Of a stretch of 64,000 nt of DNA, positions 17,833 through 44,945 are shown one piece after another. Position 1 is the stretch's first letter. Each line of letters opens with the position of its first letter. The stretch lies in the NCBI GenBank assembly GCA_009782915.1, contig WRIC01000002.1, forward strand, positions 62,001 to 126,000. Reading direction: 5' to 3'. A program made the position numbers and the translations under genes. This DNA comes from Propionibacteriaceae bacterium. GTDB taxonomy: Bacteria; Actinomycetota; Actinomycetes; Propionibacteriales; Propionibacteriaceae. The notes under the pieces were generated by a model. It saw only the letters and a program-made list of their open reading frames with translations. It had not been told where the DNA came from and did no database searches.

Positions 17833-18432
17833 TCACTCGATGGCGATGGTGGTCGTGCCCATGCCACCGGAGGAGGTGATCTGGGTGGCCAGGCGTTCAG
17901 GGACCTCCACGAGGATGACGTCAGCAGAATCAGAAAACAGTCCGGAGGAACTCGAGGAAGGGATGGTGACTACGCGGATACCACGAGTGATCGTGACATC
18001 GGAGGTGGAGGAATGTGACTGGAACACCGACACCCGGTCCCCGGGTTGGAGAAGAGTCAAAACCTGGGAGGAAACGCTCAGAGGAATGATGACATGTCCT
18101 GGGGTAGCTTGGGAGGAAGCAACAAAGTTATCGGATGTGAGGATGGCGCCTTGAGCAATGGGGGCGGAAGTCATCTGGTCGCTCAGATCCTCAGTGGTTG
18201 AGATGGCGCCAAGAGGAACCAAGCTACGAGGAACCTGAACCAGGTGAACCTGGTTGTCCGACACTATAGTCCCTGAGGGGATACGGCTTGTGGTGACGTA
18301 CACCTGGGTGGTGGGCCCCTGATCCTGGGTGAAAATCAGACACAGAGCCAAAACACAGATCCCAGCAGACAGGCTCGCCAACAGGCGACGATGCAGCAGA
18401 ACCCTGCGCAAAACAGAAGCAAGAAAGGTCAT
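17833..18432 (-). CDS. SAF-domain protein (CpaB/RcpC-like Flp pilus assembly)
   Basis: N-terminal TM; TTQVYVTTSRIPSGTIVSDNQVHLVQVPRSLVP; SSQVLTLLQPGDRVSVF. Confidence 0.75.
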   Translation of the reverse strand: MTFLASVLRRVLLHRRLLASLSAGICVLALCLIFTQDQGPTTQVYVTTSRIPSGTIVSDNQVHLVQVPRSLVPLGAISTTEDLSDQMTSAPIAQGAILTSDNFVASSQATPGHVIIPLSVSSQVLTLLQPGDRVSVFQSHSSTSDVTITRGIRVVTIPSSSSSGLFSDSADVILVEVPERLATQITSSGGMGTTTIAIE

Positions 18433-18468
18433 ACCTTAACTATGGTGAACACACGTCAGCGATTGCGG

Positions 18469-18507
18469 TTATCCACAGAAAAAAGTTCTCTCAGCGAGTT
18501 ATCCCCA
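18469..18507. promoter_or_regulatory. Paired DnaA-box-like motif (TTATCCACA ... TTATCCCCA, 30 bp apart)
   Basis: 18469-18477 and 18499-18507, in the gap upstream of the SAF gene. Confidence 0.5.
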
Positions 18508-26686: not shown

Positions 26687-28090
26687 ATGAGTAGCAACCT
26701 TGATCGGAAGAACAGATGGACTTTTTCGGTGGGGACTCTGGGGCGCGACATGGTGTACATCCTGATCTCGATGTTTTTGGTGAATTATCTGATTGATCTT
26801 CAACTCGACTCCAAGGTTTTTGCTGCGGTGTCAACGCTGATCCTCGCGGCCCGGCTCTTTGATGCGGTCATGGATTTCGTGATGGGGTCGATTGTGGATA
26901 ACACCCGCTCGCGGTGGGGGCACTACAAACCGTGGATTTTCGCTGGCATGCTCGCTTCGGGGGTTTTCACGATCCTGCTCTTCACTGATCTGGGGTTATC
27001 GGGTGCAGGTTTTGTGATCGTCTTCGCTGGCATCTACCTGATGTGGGGGTTGAGCTGGACGATGAACGACATCCCGTACTGGTCTCTCATGCCAGCCCTC
27101 ACCCTCGACCAAAAGGAACGCGAAAGAATCAGTGCGCGTGCCAAAATCTTCGCCACTATTGGTACCTTCGCTGTGGTGGTGGCTATCGTGCCCTTCGTCG
27201 AGGCTCTCACCCCACGAGTTGGAATGAGCAGATCCTGGTTGCTGTTCGCAGTGATTGTTGTCGCGGTTATGACTTTCTTCCAGTCGGTCACCCTCCTAGG
27301 AACCAAGGAACCAGATCTCGTTGTCGAGCAGGACAAAGTCAGCGCCAGGGAAGTCTTCCAGGTGGTGGCGAAAAACGATCAACTTCTGTGGACAGCCGTC
27401 GCCATGGTTTGTTTCATGACCGGGTATCTCACCTTGTCGAGTTTTGGGGTGAAATATTTCGAACACATCTATGGCAACAAGGACATGTTTTCTCCCTTTG
27501 GCGCGGTCATGGGTGTGGGCATGATTTTAGGGTACGTGCTGTTCCCTGTCCTGCGGGCGCGGATGTCACGCCGTACCCTCTACACGCTGGCAACAGCCCT
27601 CGTGGTCACAGGGTACGTGATCTTCTTTTTTGCCCCACCCAACATCCTCATCGTCGGTGTGGCCGCATTGTTGCTCTTCTTTGGAACCGCGGTCATCATC
27701 GTACTCATGTTGGTGTTCATCTCTGACACCATCGACTACGGTCATTGGAAACTCGGTAGACGCAACACCGCCCTCACCTTCGCTCTGCAACCCTTCATCT
27801 CAAAGGTCGGCGCTGCCCTCGGTACGATGATTGTGGCGATGACCGCTATAGCCACCGGCCTCAACCAGCTCACCGATGATCAACTCGATGGATACATCCT
27901 GGGTGCTTCGGATCAACTCACCTTCAAACTCATCATGATGGGCTTGCCGTTGGTTCTCACACTAGTGGGATACGGAATCTATCGCTGGAAGTATAGAATT
28001 GATGAAGCTTTCCACGCCCAAATCCTCGCCGATCTTTCAGAGCGTGGACAACTCATCGACGAAGCAGTGGAGTCATCTAAGGAGGCATGA
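26687..28090 (+). CDS. GPH-family (glycoside-pentoside-hexuronide:cation) MFS transporter
   Basis: FSVGTLGRDMVYILISMFLVNYLID; FDAVMDFVMGSIVDNTRSRWGHYKPWIF. Confidence 0.9.
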   Translation: MSSNLDRKNRWTFSVGTLGRDMVYILISMFLVNYLIDLQLDSKVFAAVSTLILAARLFDAVMDFVMGSIVDNTRSRWGHYKPWIFAGMLASGVFTILLFTDLGLSGAGFVIVFAGIYLMWGLSWTMNDIPYWSLMPALTLDQKERERISARAKIFATIGTFAVVVAIVPFVEALTPRVGMSRSWLLFAVIVVAVMTFFQSVTLLGTKEPDLVVEQDKVSAREVFQVVAKNDQLLWTAVAMVCFMTGYLTLSSFGVKYFEHIYGNKDMFSPFGAVMGVGMILGYVLFPVLRARMSRRTLYTLATALVVTGYVIFFFAPPNILIVGVAALLLFFGTAVIIVLMLVFISDTIDYGHWKLGRRNTALTFALQPFISKVGAALGTMIVAMTAIATGLNQLTDDQLDGYILGASDQLTFKLIMMGLPLVLTLVGYGIYRWKYRIDEAFHAQILADLSERGQLIDEAVESSKEA

Positions 28091-39187: not shown

Positions 39188-39937
39188 TCACAGTGGGATG
39201 GATAACCCATCATCGCCCGGGATCAGTGGCATCGTCAAACTTGATTGATCAACAACTGCCTTCCAGCATTGGATGGTGTACGGCAACAGTAACGGATTAG
39301 GAATCCGGGCGTACTGATCGTACAACTCCCCAATCTCCTCCAGCATGGCGGCTCTTCTTTCCTCCCCGAGCTCGGATGCTCCGGTGGTGTTGCAGGCGCT
39401 CTCCTGGAGCTCTGTTTTCGTGGAGGGAATCCAGTGGCGGAAGGATATCTTCTCCACCTGCGGGAAATAGGCAGCAGCAGTGAATGCCGCCACAGAATAG
39501 GAGCCGTAGTCGCTGGACATCGCATGGGGCAGGTAATACTGAACGATTCTCTTGAGTTTGTTCACCCAGGGGACTGTGTCATCTCTGGTCATATAAGCCA
39601 GCCCCACTGTGCCCTGATATTTCAAGACACGAGCCCATTCCCCCAGGGCCATCCCGGAGGCGAAGGTGTGGAAGTTTTGGATCGACAGCACCGATGAGAA
39701 GCAGCCAGGATCAAAGGGAAGTGACTCCGCTTTGCCAGCAACAATATGAACACCAGGAACCTGAAAGGCTACTTCTTTCAATGCTTCGGTGTCGGGGTCC
39801 ATGACCGTGACCGCATGCCCGGCGCGGACAAGCAGGGAGGCATATCCACTGGAAGCCCCCACCAGCAGCGTGGTTGTCGGCTCAGACCCGACAAGCCACT
39901 CCAAGGCTGAGGGCTGAATCATTGTGGTGGACGCCAT
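39188..39937 (-). CDS. SAM-dependent methyltransferase-like protein
   Basis: TTLLVGASSGYASLLVRAGHAVTVMDPDTEAL; VHIVAGKAESLPFDPGCFSSVLSIQNFHTF. Confidence 0.75.
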   Translation of the reverse strand: MASTTMIQPSALEWLVGSEPTTTLLVGASSGYASLLVRAGHAVTVMDPDTEALKEVAFQVPGVHIVAGKAESLPFDPGCFSSVLSIQNFHTFASGMALGEWARVLKYQGTVGLAYMTRDDTVPWVNKLKRIVQYYLPHAMSSDYGSYSVAAFTAAAYFPQVEKISFRHWIPSTKTELQESACNTTGASELGEERRAAMLEEIGELYDQYARIPNPLLLPYTIQCWKAVVDQSSLTMPLIPGDDGLSIPL

Positions 39938-39998
39938 GTGTGAACTGTACAGAATAAACCGTGAAGAAACCATGATTTCGCATCTGTGGCGAAGTGAG

Positions 39999-40038
39999 TT
40001 ATCCACATCTGTGGTGTCATCATCAGAATTTATCCACA
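39999..40038 (+). promoter_or_regulatory. Paired DnaA-box-like motif (TTATCCACA x2, 31 bp apart) upstream of the tad operon
   Basis: 39999-40007 and 40030-40038; operon start codon at 40089. Confidence 0.6.
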
Positions 40039-40088
40039 GATTGTGAAGTGGGCAGCATTTCCATCCTTCTGCTTGTTATTGCTTAAGT

Positions 40089-41120
40089 ATGCAACTATCT
40101 CCAGCCATACTGGTCAGCACAGAGTCCAGGTTCATCAACCTTGTTCAAGCATCAGCTGCCACCAGTGGTAGCTCGGTTGTGGTGGTGTCTACGAGCGAGG
40201 AACTACGCTCACAGTGGCATTCATCATCAGCTGTCCTCATTGGTGCCGACCAACTCGATGAGGTGAGCAGGTGGGCTTTGCCCCAGCGAGACCAGGTCTA
40301 TTTGGTGGGTGAGGATCATGACCAGGAGGCAATGTGCCGATGGTCAGCTCCACTAGCAGCCCCAGTGATTCGTCTTCCCGAGGCGTCATCGTTGCTGACT
40401 CGAATAGTTTCGGGCCACCCCAGCACCCAGCGTTCAGCATCGGTGGTGGGTTTCCGCGGTGGAGCTGGTGGAGTGGGCACCTCGACCTTGAGTGCTGGTG
40501 TGGCTTTGGTGGCAGCTCGTTCTTCGCTCAAGGTTGCCCTGGTTGATGGGGATTGGTGTGGGGGCGGAATAGACCTGCTCATGGGGGCTGAGAACACCCC
40601 AGGGTGGCGGTGGGACAAGTTGAGAAATGCCCATGGACACATTGCAGATATCACTTCGATGCTTCCTACGAGTGAAGGCATCACGTTGGTGTCTATGGAG
40701 AGAACCGAGCAGCTTCCCGCGCCGATGGAAGCCTTCGAATCGGTGGTGGATTCTTTAATGAGATGCCACGACCTGGTGATTATCGACTCAGGGCGAGATG
40801 GTGGTGTGCCAGCCGTTGTGAAGAAAACAGTGGTGGTGGCTGCCGCCACTGTCCGGGCTCTTGCTTCCACCAAGGCGGGACTTATTTCTGGCCAGACAGA
40901 CACAGGTTTGGTGGTGCGACGAGGTGGGACAGTAACCGCCTCTCAGGCAGCACGGGTGGTGGGTCTTCCTTTACTGGCAGTGGTGCCAACCCAGGTGGAT
41001 CTTCCGCGTTTAGCTGATCGGGGGATTCCACCGTACCTGGGGGGGAAATGGAGAAAAACCTGCACACAGGTCCTTGATTGGTGTGTGGGAGCGACACCGA
41101 AAAGGGGTTTGCGATGGTGA
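40089..41120 (+). CDS. CpaE/Ssd-like (septum-site-determining/Tad) P-loop protein
   Basis: VVGFRGGAGGVGTSTLSAGVALVAARSSLKVALVDGDWCGGG; first gene of tad operon. Confidence 0.85.
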   Translation: MQLSPAILVSTESRFINLVQASAATSGSSVVVVSTSEELRSQWHSSSAVLIGADQLDEVSRWALPQRDQVYLVGEDHDQEAMCRWSAPLAAPVIRLPEASSLLTRIVSGHPSTQRSASVVGFRGGAGGVGTSTLSAGVALVAARSSLKVALVDGDWCGGGIDLLMGAENTPGWRWDKLRNAHGHIADITSMLPTSEGITLVSMERTEQLPAPMEAFESVVDSLMRCHDLVIIDSGRDGGVPAVVKKTVVVAAATVRALASTKAGLISGQTDTGLVVRRGGTVTASQAARVVGLPLLAVVPTQVDLPRLADRGIPPYLGGKWRKTCTQVLDWCVGATPKRGLRW

Positions 41121-42253
41121 GCGGACAGACCCTCGAAACGGTTCGCCGCCACCTGGCGGTTTTTGGTCACCGGCCCACCTTGACCAATATTGCTGATGCT
41201 CTGCGGGAAACAGGTCAGGTAGTGTCCCAGCGACAGATTCTCGACATCTTTGAGGGCATCTCTCGGGACTCTCTTGGGTTGGGGGTGCTTGATCAACTCT
41301 TGGACATCGATGGGGTGACAGACATTGTTGTCAATGGCCCCAACCAGGTTTTCTTCGATTGTGGGCAAGGTTTGGAACCCGCTTTGATCAGTTTTTCTTC
41401 TGATGATGAGGTACGCCAGTTGGGGGTACGTTTGGCTGCATCGGTGGGGCGGCGTCTCGATGATGGCTCTCCTTTTGTGGATGCCCGACTCCACAATGGT
41501 GTTCGCTTCCATGGGGTGTTGGCTGGAATCTCTCACCCCGGAACCTGTTTGTCTTTGCGCATCCCGGCGAAAACTTGTCTCAGTTTGGAGGACTGGGAAT
41601 CTGGTGGCGGCGTTGACCGGCAAGCGGGCATGATTCTTCGCCGGATCGTAGACCTGAAGGTGGCTTTCCTTATTTCTGGTGGAACAGGATCAGGCAAGAC
41701 CACACTGCTGGGTAGCCTTCTTTCTTTGGTCCCTCCGAGTGAGCGTTTGGTGGTTGTTGAGGATTCTCGTGAACTTGATCCTTCCCATCCGCACCTTGTT
41801 TCTTTGGAGTCCCGCCCAGCTAATGGGGAGGAGGCTGGTCGGGTAACGATGACCGATCTGGTCAGACAGGCTTTGAGAATGCGTCCGGATCGCTTGGTGG
41901 TGGGGGAGGTTCGTGGGGCAGAGCTTCGGGATCTTCTTCAGGCTCTCAACACTGGTCACGAGGGTGGATGTGGAACGATTCATGCCAACTCTATTGGGGA
42001 TATTCCTGCTCGACTGGAGGCACTGGGAGCCTTGAGTGGATTGTCACCGGCAGCTACCCATGCCCAGGTGGTGTCTGCGATTCGTGTGGTGATCCATGTG
42101 GTTCGCCGCGGACCAGTACGAGAGGTCAGCCAGATCGGTGTCCTTGTTCGAGGTTCCTCCGATCGCCTTGAATCTGTCCTTGCATGGAGTAGGTGTGGCC
42201 AAGAAACCCAGCGAGGACCAGGGTGGGATCTGTTGGGTGGGCTCCTATCATGA
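41114..42253 (+). CDS. tadA: Tad/Flp secretion ATPase TadA (CpaF)
   Basis: LISGGTGSGKTTLLGSLLSLVP; VVVEDSRELDP; GEVRGAELRDLLQALNTGHEGGCGTIHANS. Confidence 0.95.
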   Translation: MVSGQTLETVRRHLAVFGHRPTLTNIADALRETGQVVSQRQILDIFEGISRDSLGLGVLDQLLDIDGVTDIVVNGPNQVFFDCGQGLEPALISFSSDDEVRQLGVRLAASVGRRLDDGSPFVDARLHNGVRFHGVLAGISHPGTCLSLRIPAKTCLSLEDWESGGGVDRQAGMILRRIVDLKVAFLISGGTGSGKTTLLGSLLSLVPPSERLVVVEDSRELDPSHPHLVSLESRPANGEEAGRVTMTDLVRQALRMRPDRLVVGEVRGAELRDLLQALNTGHEGGCGTIHANSIGDIPARLEALGALSGLSPAATHAQVVSAIRVVIHVVRRGPVREVSQIGVLVRGSSDRLESVLAWSRCGQETQRGPGWDLLGGLLS

Positions 42254-43053
42254 TCGGATTGGCTGCTGGTTGCGCTGGTTTGGCTGCGTGGTTTCTTTTT
42301 CCTGATTCATCTGTGCCGGTTGCCCGGTTGACCCCTGGTGAACCAACGCATCCTCGTCGAAGAAATACCTGGGTTCTGCTGGGTGTTGGTGTGGTGTTCT
42401 GTGGGGTTCTGGGTTTCTTTTTCCCTGGAATGCTCATCATGGCAGCAGTGTGTGCGATTGGCCTCACTGTTGGGTGGGTGGTTTCTCTTCGGCTTCGCCT
42501 CAAACGTGCGCGCTTGGGTTCGCTCCAGGTGGCACGGGCTACACAGGTGGTGGAGTCTCTAGTGGGGTTGGGACATATTCCCACAACTGCATTGAAACTT
42601 GCCGCCCAGGAATGCCCTCTTCTTGAACCCGCATCCCAGTTGGTGTCCATGGGTGGCCAACCCTGGGAGGTCATGGAGCAGCTCTCCATGGCTCCTGGAC
42701 AGGAGGGTCTGGCTCAGATCGGGCACGCCTGGAGAGTGTCCCAGATCTCGGGTTCTTCCATGTGTGATCCTTTGGAACAGGTGCGCATCAACCTGGAGGA
42801 AGCATCCGCGGCTGGTGATGTGGTGAGAGGGGAACTCGCTGGCCCGCGTGCAACAGCTCAAATGTTGGCTGTTTTTCCTTTTCTGGGTATGGCTATGGCA
42901 TCAGGGTTAGGGGCAAACCCCTTGGTTTTCTTCACTTCTACTGTCGTGGGCAGACTCTGTTTCCTCGCCGGGATTTTCTTGGGGTGTGTCGGGATGATCT
43001 GGAGTGAGTCTGTGGCAGCTAGTGAACTGTCCGAGCCGCGGAGGTCACAATGA
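42250..43053 (+). CDS. tadB: Tad inner-membrane protein TadB
   Basis: T2SSF-like segment, position between tadA and tadC. Confidence 0.8.
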   Translation: MIGLAAGCAGLAAWFLFPDSSVPVARLTPGEPTHPRRRNTWVLLGVGVVFCGVLGFFFPGMLIMAAVCAIGLTVGWVVSLRLRLKRARLGSLQVARATQVVESLVGLGHIPTTALKLAAQECPLLEPASQLVSMGGQPWEVMEQLSMAPGQEGLAQIGHAWRVSQISGSSMCDPLEQVRINLEEASAAGDVVRGELAGPRATAQMLAVFPFLGMAMASGLGANPLVFFTSTVVGRLCFLAGIFLGCVGMIWSESVAASELSEPRRSQ

Positions 43054-43793
43054 GTGGTCTTGTGTGGATAGCTAGTGGGGCGGCAGTGATGTGTCTGTGG
43101 TTTCTTCTTCCCCCTGCTGCGATCACGAGGTTGACCCCTGTGATTGCCCGCACTCTTCCGCCCTGGGCTGAGTCTCGGGTGGACGGCTTGCCGTCGAAGA
43201 CTCGGTGGATGGTGGGTGCTGGTGCAGGGGTGGGTGTGGCTATTGTCTTGTGGGATCTCTTTCCAGTTGTTATCCCCCTAGCTGTTGGTGTTGTTCCAGC
43301 GGTGTGGATTGCCTTGGGAAAACTTGAGCCTTCTTCTGCACGCCACCGTCGAGAAGTAACCCTGAATGTGCTTCCCGAGGCTCTCGATCTCATGGGAGCC
43401 TGTCTTCGTGCTGGTCAACCTTTGAGAACAGCTTCCATCACTGTTGGCCAAGCCATGGGTCCACCTATGGGCGTACTGTTCAATTCGGTCAATCACGCCA
43501 TCTCGGTGGGAATGTCGGATGAGCAGGCATGGAAGGTGCTTGGGGATGACCCGGTGCTCGGGGAGGTTGCTCGGGATATTGCCCGCTGTGCCTCCTGGGG
43601 TACGACCACGGTGGAAGTCCTGGCCCATCATAGTCGGGCTCTGCGCAGAGCAGCAGCCCAGTGTCGAATCAATCGGGCCAAACAGGTCGGTGTCAAGAGT
43701 GTCCTTCCCCTGGGCTTGTGTTATTTGCCAGCTTTTCTCCTGCTGGGGGTGGTTCCTGTCATCGCGGCAGGGGTGGCGGGCTTCCTGTCCTAG
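43050..43793 (+). CDS. tadC: Tad inner-membrane protein TadC
   Basis: LPEALDLMGACLRAGQPLRTA..; KSVLPLGLCYLPAFLLLGVVPVI. Confidence 0.88.
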   Translation: MSGLVWIASGAAVMCLWFLLPPAAITRLTPVIARTLPPWAESRVDGLPSKTRWMVGAGAGVGVAIVLWDLFPVVIPLAVGVVPAVWIALGKLEPSSARHRREVTLNVLPEALDLMGACLRAGQPLRTASITVGQAMGPPMGVLFNSVNHAISVGMSDEQAWKVLGDDPVLGEVARDIARCASWGTTTVEVLAHHSRALRRAAAQCRINRAKQVGVKSVLPLGLCYLPAFLLLGVVPVIAAGVAGFLS

Positions 43794-43799
43794 GTGTTG

Positions 43800-43839
43800 T
43801 TATCCACAGAAAAACTTTTTTCGCTGATAGTTCTCCACA
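43800..43839 (+). promoter_or_regulatory. Paired DnaA-box-like motif (TTATCCACA ... TTCTCCACA, 31 bp apart) upstream of the pilin-like gene
   Basis: 43800-43808 and 43831-43839, between tadC and the DUF4244 gene. Confidence 0.55.
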
Positions 43840-43928
43840 GGTTTCCAATCAGAGCGCATTTCTGGGCCCAAACACCCCATTGTCTGAGATGTCACGGATT
43901 TGTCGTGGCCATAACAAAGGAGTAGTTA

Positions 43929-44135
43929 ATGAAGGTTATTCTCGCCAAGGTGATGAGTCGATTGGCTGGACATCGCGAAGCAGGAATGGCAACCGCTGAA
44001 TATGCCGTGGGTACGGTGGCTGTGGTGAGTATTGGTGGAATCCTCTACAAGATCATCACTGATCCCGAATTCCAGAAGACCATCTGGGAGTTCATTTTGT
44101 GGATTATCAAGATCATCATGGGAACCATGGGCTGA
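43929..44135 (+). CDS. DUF4244 (Flp pilin-like) protein
   Basis: EAG|MATAEYAVGTVAVVSIGGILYKI: G|xxxxEY prepilin cleavage motif. Confidence 0.9.
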   Translation: MKVILAKVMSRLAGHREAGMATAEYAVGTVAVVSIGGILYKIITDPEFQKTIWEFILWIIKIIMGTMG

Positions 44136-44194: not shown

Positions 44195-44563
44195 ATGACT
44201 AGAGATCATTCACCAAAGACTCAGCGAGGCTGGGTCTCCGTGGAGATGGCTTTCGCTGCTGTGGGGCTCGGGTTGGCCATTATTTTTGGGGCAGGCCTCT
44301 TCAGTGCGGGACTCACCCAGATTCGGGTCTATGAGGCTGCCTCTCAGATAGCCCGACAAGCATCTCGCGATGATCTTGCCGCAGTACGCCAGATCACCTC
44401 CCGGTTGCCTGATGATGCTGTGGTGGCCATCAACCGAGTGGACAACCGTGTTGTGGTGGAGGTGTCGATAGAGGTGAGCCCCTGGGGGCCAGCCTTGCCC
44501 TCCCTGGTGGTTCACAGTGCTGTTTCTGCCCTTGCGGAAGGGACTGCCCATGAGCCAGTATAG
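44195..44563 (+). CDS. TadE-like pseudopilin
   Basis: QRG|WVSVEMAFAAVGLGLAIIFGAGLF. Confidence 0.85.
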   Translation: MTRDHSPKTQRGWVSVEMAFAAVGLGLAIIFGAGLFSAGLTQIRVYEAASQIARQASRDDLAAVRQITSRLPDDAVVAINRVDNRVVVEVSIEVSPWGPALPSLVVHSAVSALAEGTAHEPV

Positions 44564-44945
44564 CCACACAGGGCTATTGTCTCAGCGAGGATCGGGAACC
44601 CTATCAGCAGTGGCCCTGACCTGTGGGTTGGGGATCACCGCACTGGTGAGCTGTGTGGTGGTGATGTGTATCTCCACCTATCACCAGGCACAGACCTCCT
44701 CCGATCTTGCTGCCTTAGCTGCAGCCAGTGAAGCCATGGAATCCCTGGACGACACCCATTGTTGCTCCTCAGCTCGCTTAGTGGCTGAAGCCAATGGCGC
44801 AACCCTCACCAACTGCGAGGTGGTTCGCGCTGGAGCAGAGGTTGCCTCCCATGTTGAGGTCAGTGTTGACCTCCCCTGGAATGTGCCCGGCTTCCCCACC
44901 AAGATGACCTCCACCTCGTACGCCGGCACCCCAACAAGTTGGTAG
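44550..44945 (+). CDS. TadG/Rv3654c-like helicase/secretion-neighborhood protein
   Basis: QRGSGTLSAVALTCGLGITALVSCVVVM..YHQAQTSSDLAALAAAS; last tad gene. Confidence 0.8.
   Translation: MSQYSHTGLLSQRGSGTLSAVALTCGLGITALVSCVVVMCISTYHQAQTSSDLAALAAASEAMESLDDTHCCSSARLVAEANGATLTNCEVVRAGAEVASHVEVSVDLPWNVPGFPTKMTSTSYAGTPTSW

Follow-up and report, generated by a model that had tools for sequence, protein, structure and literature searches.

The paired DnaA-type boxes that precede the tad operon of this Propionibacteriaceae genome belong to an operator that probably serves a natural-transformation regulon and is bound by an activator, for which DnaA is the leading candidate. The operator itself is well supported, its sites, spacing, promoter geometry, regulon, and conservation being matters of observation. 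Three copies are found in the window, by which is meant the whole 64,000-nucleotide stretch of DNA that was analyzed, and the features at these sites are as follows.

39999-40007, + strand: TTATCCACA, the distal of the two DnaA-type boxes in the tadZ operator, identified from the sequence
40030-40039, + strand: TTATCCACAG, the proximal box of the same operator, 31 bp away and identified likewise
40089-41120, + strand: tadZ/cpaE-like gene (NCBIfam CpaE_hom_Actino), first of the tadZABC operon
41078-43793, + strand: tadA, tadB, and tadC (tadB by position and by similarity among relatives)
39969-39974, - strand: predicted -10 CATGGT facing the methyltransferase gene, +25 from the box (sequence and genus geometry)
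39188-39937, - strand: class I SAM methyltransferase gene, divergent from tadZ
43800-43840, + strand: box pair TTATCCACAG / TTCTCCACAG ahead of the flp pilin gene
43878-43883, + strand: CATTGT, predicted -10 for flp, at +38 relative to the box (sequence and genus geometry)
43929-44135, + strand: Flp-type pilin gene, 68 residues (pilin by size, position, and sequence character only)
44195-44945: TadE/TadG-like minor pilin genes, after flp
18469-18507, + strand: box pair TTATCCACAG / TTATCCCCAG ahead of the SAF/CpaB gene, inverted with respect to that gene
18439-18444, - strand: CATAGT, predicted -10 for SAF/CpaB, at +25 relative to the box (sequence and genus geometry)
17833-18432, - strand: SAF-domain CpaB/RcpC-like gene

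The sequence-only reading had placed two TTATCCACA boxes at 39999-40007 and 40030-40038 on the forward strand and had described the same two-box layout at 43800/43831 and 18469/18499; all of these pairs are present, and the sole further exact 9-mer in the window is, as it had reported, the reverse-strand copy at 26893-26901. At the flp site, the boxes occupy 43800-43808 and 43831-43839, the second being TTCTCCACA, and at the SAF site they occupy 18469-18477 and 18499-18507, the second being TTATCCCCA. The spacing from box to box in the window pairs is 30-31 bp, about three helical turns, with a gap of N21 or N22, and 50 bases separate the proximal box of the tadZ operator from the ATG at 40089. 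It should be noted that single boxes with at most one mismatch are not significantly enriched in the 64-kb window (16 versus 10.8 expected); box pairs number 3, as compared with 0 in 1.92 Mb of simulated third-order Markov sequence of matching composition.

In the genome from which the window comes (1.64 Mb, 93.5% complete), a search for the strict pair, TTATCCACA-gap-TTNTCCNCA, gave four matches versus none for the reversed pattern. Three of them are the sites in the window and the fourth is on contig C5, all situated before Tad, CpaB, or LysM genes; the C5 pair precedes the gene for a 1004-residue LysM protein, a class that recurs at the pairs of relatives. Exact TTATCCACAG boxes are also located before yraN-comM-dprA, the leader peptidase gene, comEA, ssb (two boxes), the M23 peptidase gene, and an AbiEi_4-DUF559 gene, and three more are present at oriC. 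The comEA, ssb, yraN, and M23 genes of this genome have a single good box or some other box arrangement. A further exact TTATCCACAG box lies directly upstream of the primase gene dnaG (L371, G000:C4:105152).

The spacing is closely maintained among relatives. When exact pairs with gaps of 8-38 bases were collected from 19 genomes of the genus, 33 of the 36 had gaps of 20-23 bases (18 at N21, 12 at N22, 2 at N20, and 1 at N23), and one of the three at other gaps adjoins dnaA. Degenerate pairs, allowing up to three mismatches over 20 positions, number about 127 in the genus versus 3 in reversed-pattern controls. In a scan of the order, exact TTRTCCACA pairs were present in 56 of 397 genomes and 20 of 40 genera, with none in the controls, and 52 of the 56 pair-bearing genomes belong to Propionibacteriaceae, the family of the window. 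In the other genera of this family, the pairs precede comEA, tadZ, ssb, yraN-comM, SAF, and DUF559 genes, and a scan of the class added one further family (f23), with up to nine sites per genome, in which they precede comEA, ssb, tadA, tadE, and DUF559 genes. The pairs first described in the window are thus retained in the genus, in genera of the order, and in family f23. In most other families of the order, no clear DnaA-box pair precedes comEA; one genome of family f3 (L413) does have a comEA pair. In family f22, the large-genome genus g58 has a single pair per genome, which is assumed to be oriC, and among the matches listed in the contig scan, most were background and oriC-type clusters. 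All of the evidence comes from sequence; the comparison sequences include many draft genomes, and the gene calls are mechanical open reading frames.

The open reading frames adjoining the genus sites were compared with the genes of the window and with Pfam. Tad or competence-type genes adjoin 92 of the 112 distinct sites, but this gene set was built in part from the site neighbors themselves, and Tad and competence genes named beforehand account for about 65 of the 112. The classes represented are tadZ (15 sites), ssb (13), SAF/CpaB (11), flp/tadE (10), LysM (10), DUF4192 (8-9), comEA (7), yraN-comM (7), M23 next to rplM (4), and PDDEXK_2 (3), with DUF559, DsbA, leader peptidase, and recA as single cases; all 20 perfect pairs (20/20) were assigned to the listed classes. 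One cis element is common to genes of DNA uptake and of DNA processing. The sequence-only reading had named a lack of enrichment near tad and com genes, or of conservation, as refuting it, and neither outcome was obtained: the enrichment extends to tad, SAF/CpaB, leader peptidase, comEA(-comEC), and yraN-comM-dprA and, together with the conservation, supports its proposal of a phased two-site operator by which DnaA or some other regulator coordinates Tad and possibly DNA-uptake genes. Because transformation in Micrococcus luteus requires Tad pili and ComEA/ComEC (PMC4322843, PMC12849477), the gene set is read as a natural-transformation regulon.

Several other protein families accompany the operator. 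DUF559 (MTES_1575 nuclease-like) proteins recur under it in several families (L408:3431-4348, L364:665-1354, L036, L423, L449, and L458), that of the window's own genome carrying an AbiEi_4 domain, and it is possible that they represent a new competence nuclease or regulator. DUF4192 proteins also recur under the operator, sometimes within a few kb of comEA (L032, L248, L333, L357, and L261), and DUF222 proteins adjoin it in other Propionibacteriaceae genera (L439, with an HNH domain, and L426). Throughout the genus, tadZ has the methyltransferase gene as its divergent neighbor; the operator is common to the two and probably drives the methyltransferase gene as well.

With respect to the protein that reads these sites, the boxes match the 9-mer TTATNCACA or TTRTCCACA and can be classed as DnaA boxes, and boxes with this consensus are also present in the dnaA-dnaN regions of the genus, the trailing G being common to both. 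The single-substitution variants compared (TTGTCCACA, CTATCCACA, TTATCCCCA, TTATGCACA, TCATCCACA, and GTATCCACA) occur at com sites and at oriC in near-equal proportions (Pearson 0.92; Spearman 0.66, p = 1.7e-4), as against a Pearson coefficient of -0.10 between com-site variants and background. A gene encoding DnaA domain IV was matched once in each of 32 of the 34 genomes, and a second DnaA-like protein, consisting of a standalone domain IV, was rejected, since none of the 34 genomes has two domain-IV matches. DnaA binding is the simplest reading because the consensus, the variants, and the trailing G match those of oriC and there is no second domain-IV gene; the operator is thus most probably bound by DnaA. 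It should be recognized that the comparison of oriC boxes in GC-rich genera draws on a thin sample, dnaA being present in only 3 of 20 contig starts. The DnaA of the genus is one residue short in the domain-IV signature (F-G-RDHTTV versus FGGRDHTTV in most other genera compared), as seen in all 17 genus sequences read, including L048 (G000:C16). In two genomes (L046/G008 and L065/G007), the 900 bp that follow dnaA are devoid of DnaA-type boxes, and the com pairs of these genomes are likewise degenerate or absent; possibly, the oriC boxes and com pairs co-evolve in these genomes.

The boxes might instead be read by a dedicated competence transcription factor, unrelated to DnaA, that recognizes a DnaA-like box of 9-10 bp and turns on this regulon. 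Competence regulons elsewhere rely on dedicated regulators, and a factor of DnaA-like specificity would leave identical sites. Candidates are an HTH_17/BldC-like protein, as at Mlut_14660, and the operator-carrying AbiEi_4-DUF559 proteins, which have a predicted DNA-binding domain: mutations in the HTH_17 gene of M. luteus deregulate comEA/EC (PMC8467076), and the regulon repeatedly includes DUF559 proteins in different families, an AbiEi_4 winged helix being present in one of them. However, the near-equal proportions of box variants at com sites and oriC speak against such a factor, HTH_17 genes are numerous, and an HTH_17 regulator beside the SAF site was rejected, none being found among the genes read there. 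A dedicated factor consequently appears unlikely, and the HTH_17 protein of M. luteus may act upstream or elsewhere.

If DnaA is the bound protein, the geometry of the promoters suggests how it could act. Within the genus, the operator has a fixed placement with respect to the promoters: a CAYNGT hexamer in the direct orientation starts at +38 from the box at 57 sites and at +37 at 10, and on the inverted side it starts at +26 at 19 sites and at +25 at 13, the totals over 111 genus sites being 67 and 32, respectively, as compared with a median of 0 elsewhere. This hexamer fits a -10 element, and a conserved CA, located at +17/18 on the direct side and at +5/6 on the inverted side, would fit the end of a -35 element, with a spacer of 19 bp on both sides. 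At all seven paired comEA sites of the genus (7/7), as well as at comEA in the genome of the window, exactly 50 bp separate the start codon from the box, and for most tadZ genes of the genus the distance is 50-51 bp; this distance matches leaderless transcripts that begin at the start codon, as we infer them to do. The tadZ transcript of the window, with its start 50 bp from the box, is probably leaderless. The tadZ -10 of the window is weaker, with no match to CAYNGT. The LysM, SAF, and yraN genes use the inverted side, and some sites have both sides, as with tadZ and the divergent methyltransferase gene. In other genera and in family f23, the CAYNGT -10 was not clearly recovered, and start codons are at a similar distance. 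LysM loci (L004, L294, L299, L358, and L361) also have an opposite-side -10 at +38 and a leaderless start of short open reading frames; a conserved small peptide opposite the LysM gene was rejected, since both the -10 and the leaderless start recur whereas the peptide shows no conservation. Between the two orientations, the placement differs by 12 bases, about one helical turn, and this offset, together with the constant phase, argues that the bound protein would touch RNA polymerase.

DnaA is able both to activate and to repress, and the same boxes could in principle allow it to repress or roadblock transcription, competence being off until DnaA is titrated or inactivated. This dual ability, and the fact that the inverted-side box abuts the putative -35, would be compatible with repression, but the direct-side boxes lie upstream of the putative -35, between about -50 and -90, where activators usually bind, and the promoter core looks weak, with its 19-bp spacer and a C at the first position of the -10; repression is accordingly improbable. 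DnaA boxes outside oriC can also titrate DnaA, but that the pairs are merely titration or chromosome-organizing sites, or arose by chance, with no role in transcription, is very hard to reconcile with the constant distance and phase that they keep to a conserved -10 and to the start codon, their strong gene specificity, and near-zero controls.

In the preferred mechanism, an activator, most probably DnaA, would occupy the two boxes on one face of the helix and turn on a weak promoter, in which 19 bp separate a -35 that ends in CA from a CAYNGT -10 and which is held at a fixed distance on either side of the pair. The Tad DNA-uptake pilus, leader peptidase, ComEA/ComEC, SSB, YraN-ComM-DprA, and RecA would then be co-expressed, along with accessory nuclease, hydrolase, and methyltransferase genes. 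Bound DnaA would activate rather than repress, and the signal would be replication or DnaA-ATP status. We lean, with moderate confidence, toward the broader view that, in Propionibacteriaceae and in one or more further actinobacterial families, natural competence has DnaA as its direct master activator, and that DnaA couples DNA uptake and recombination to replication status via a stereotyped bidirectional two-box promoter. The operator addresses the question of how natural transformation is controlled in Actinomycetota: it defines a competence regulon from sequence alone, nominates as competence genes several that are not normally classed as such (those for the LysM protein, DUF4192, DUF559, the M23 peptidase, and the tadZ-linked methyltransferase), and yields a sharp prediction, namely control of DNA uptake by the replication initiator.

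The DnaA regulons of Bacillus subtilis, Caulobacter, and Escherichia coli have TTATNCACA-type boxes near promoters, as here, and in both cases the sites share the 9-mer and its variants with oriC. No whole competence/Tad regulon run by DnaA through a stereotyped 30/31-bp two-box operator was found in the open-access literature. The link between DnaA and competence in B. subtilis is a co-localization with Rok, a repressor of comK (PMC11841835). The operators of Bacillota and Gammaproteobacteria (ComK boxes, the ComX CIN-box, and CRP-S/Sxy sites) resemble the present one in that a single cis element precedes genes for the pilus, comEA/EC, ssb, dprA, and recA. Like the operator described here, ComK boxes are phased and consist of two parts; the box sequence differs from those of the ComK boxes, the CIN-box, and the CRP-S/Sxy sites. 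M. luteus, the model of the phylum, is without ComK and ComX (PMC4322843, PMC12849477), and no operator or binding motif for actinobacterial competence, that of M. luteus included, was found in the open-access literature; a 2026 study of this organism lists the upstream signals and the regulatory nodes or cascade as unidentified (PMC12849477). Mutations at the cpaB locus of M. luteus alter comEA/EC expression and transformation, and the screen points to an HTH_17 protein beside CpaB, not to DnaA (PMC8467076). This organism, whose transformation is Flp/Tad-dependent, has homologues of the Tad pilus, comEA/comEC, SAF/CpaB, and dprA genes, as here. Competence regulons are known, and so is DnaA acting as a transcription factor; to the extent that this could be checked, what is new is their combination, together with the bidirectional two-box architecture.
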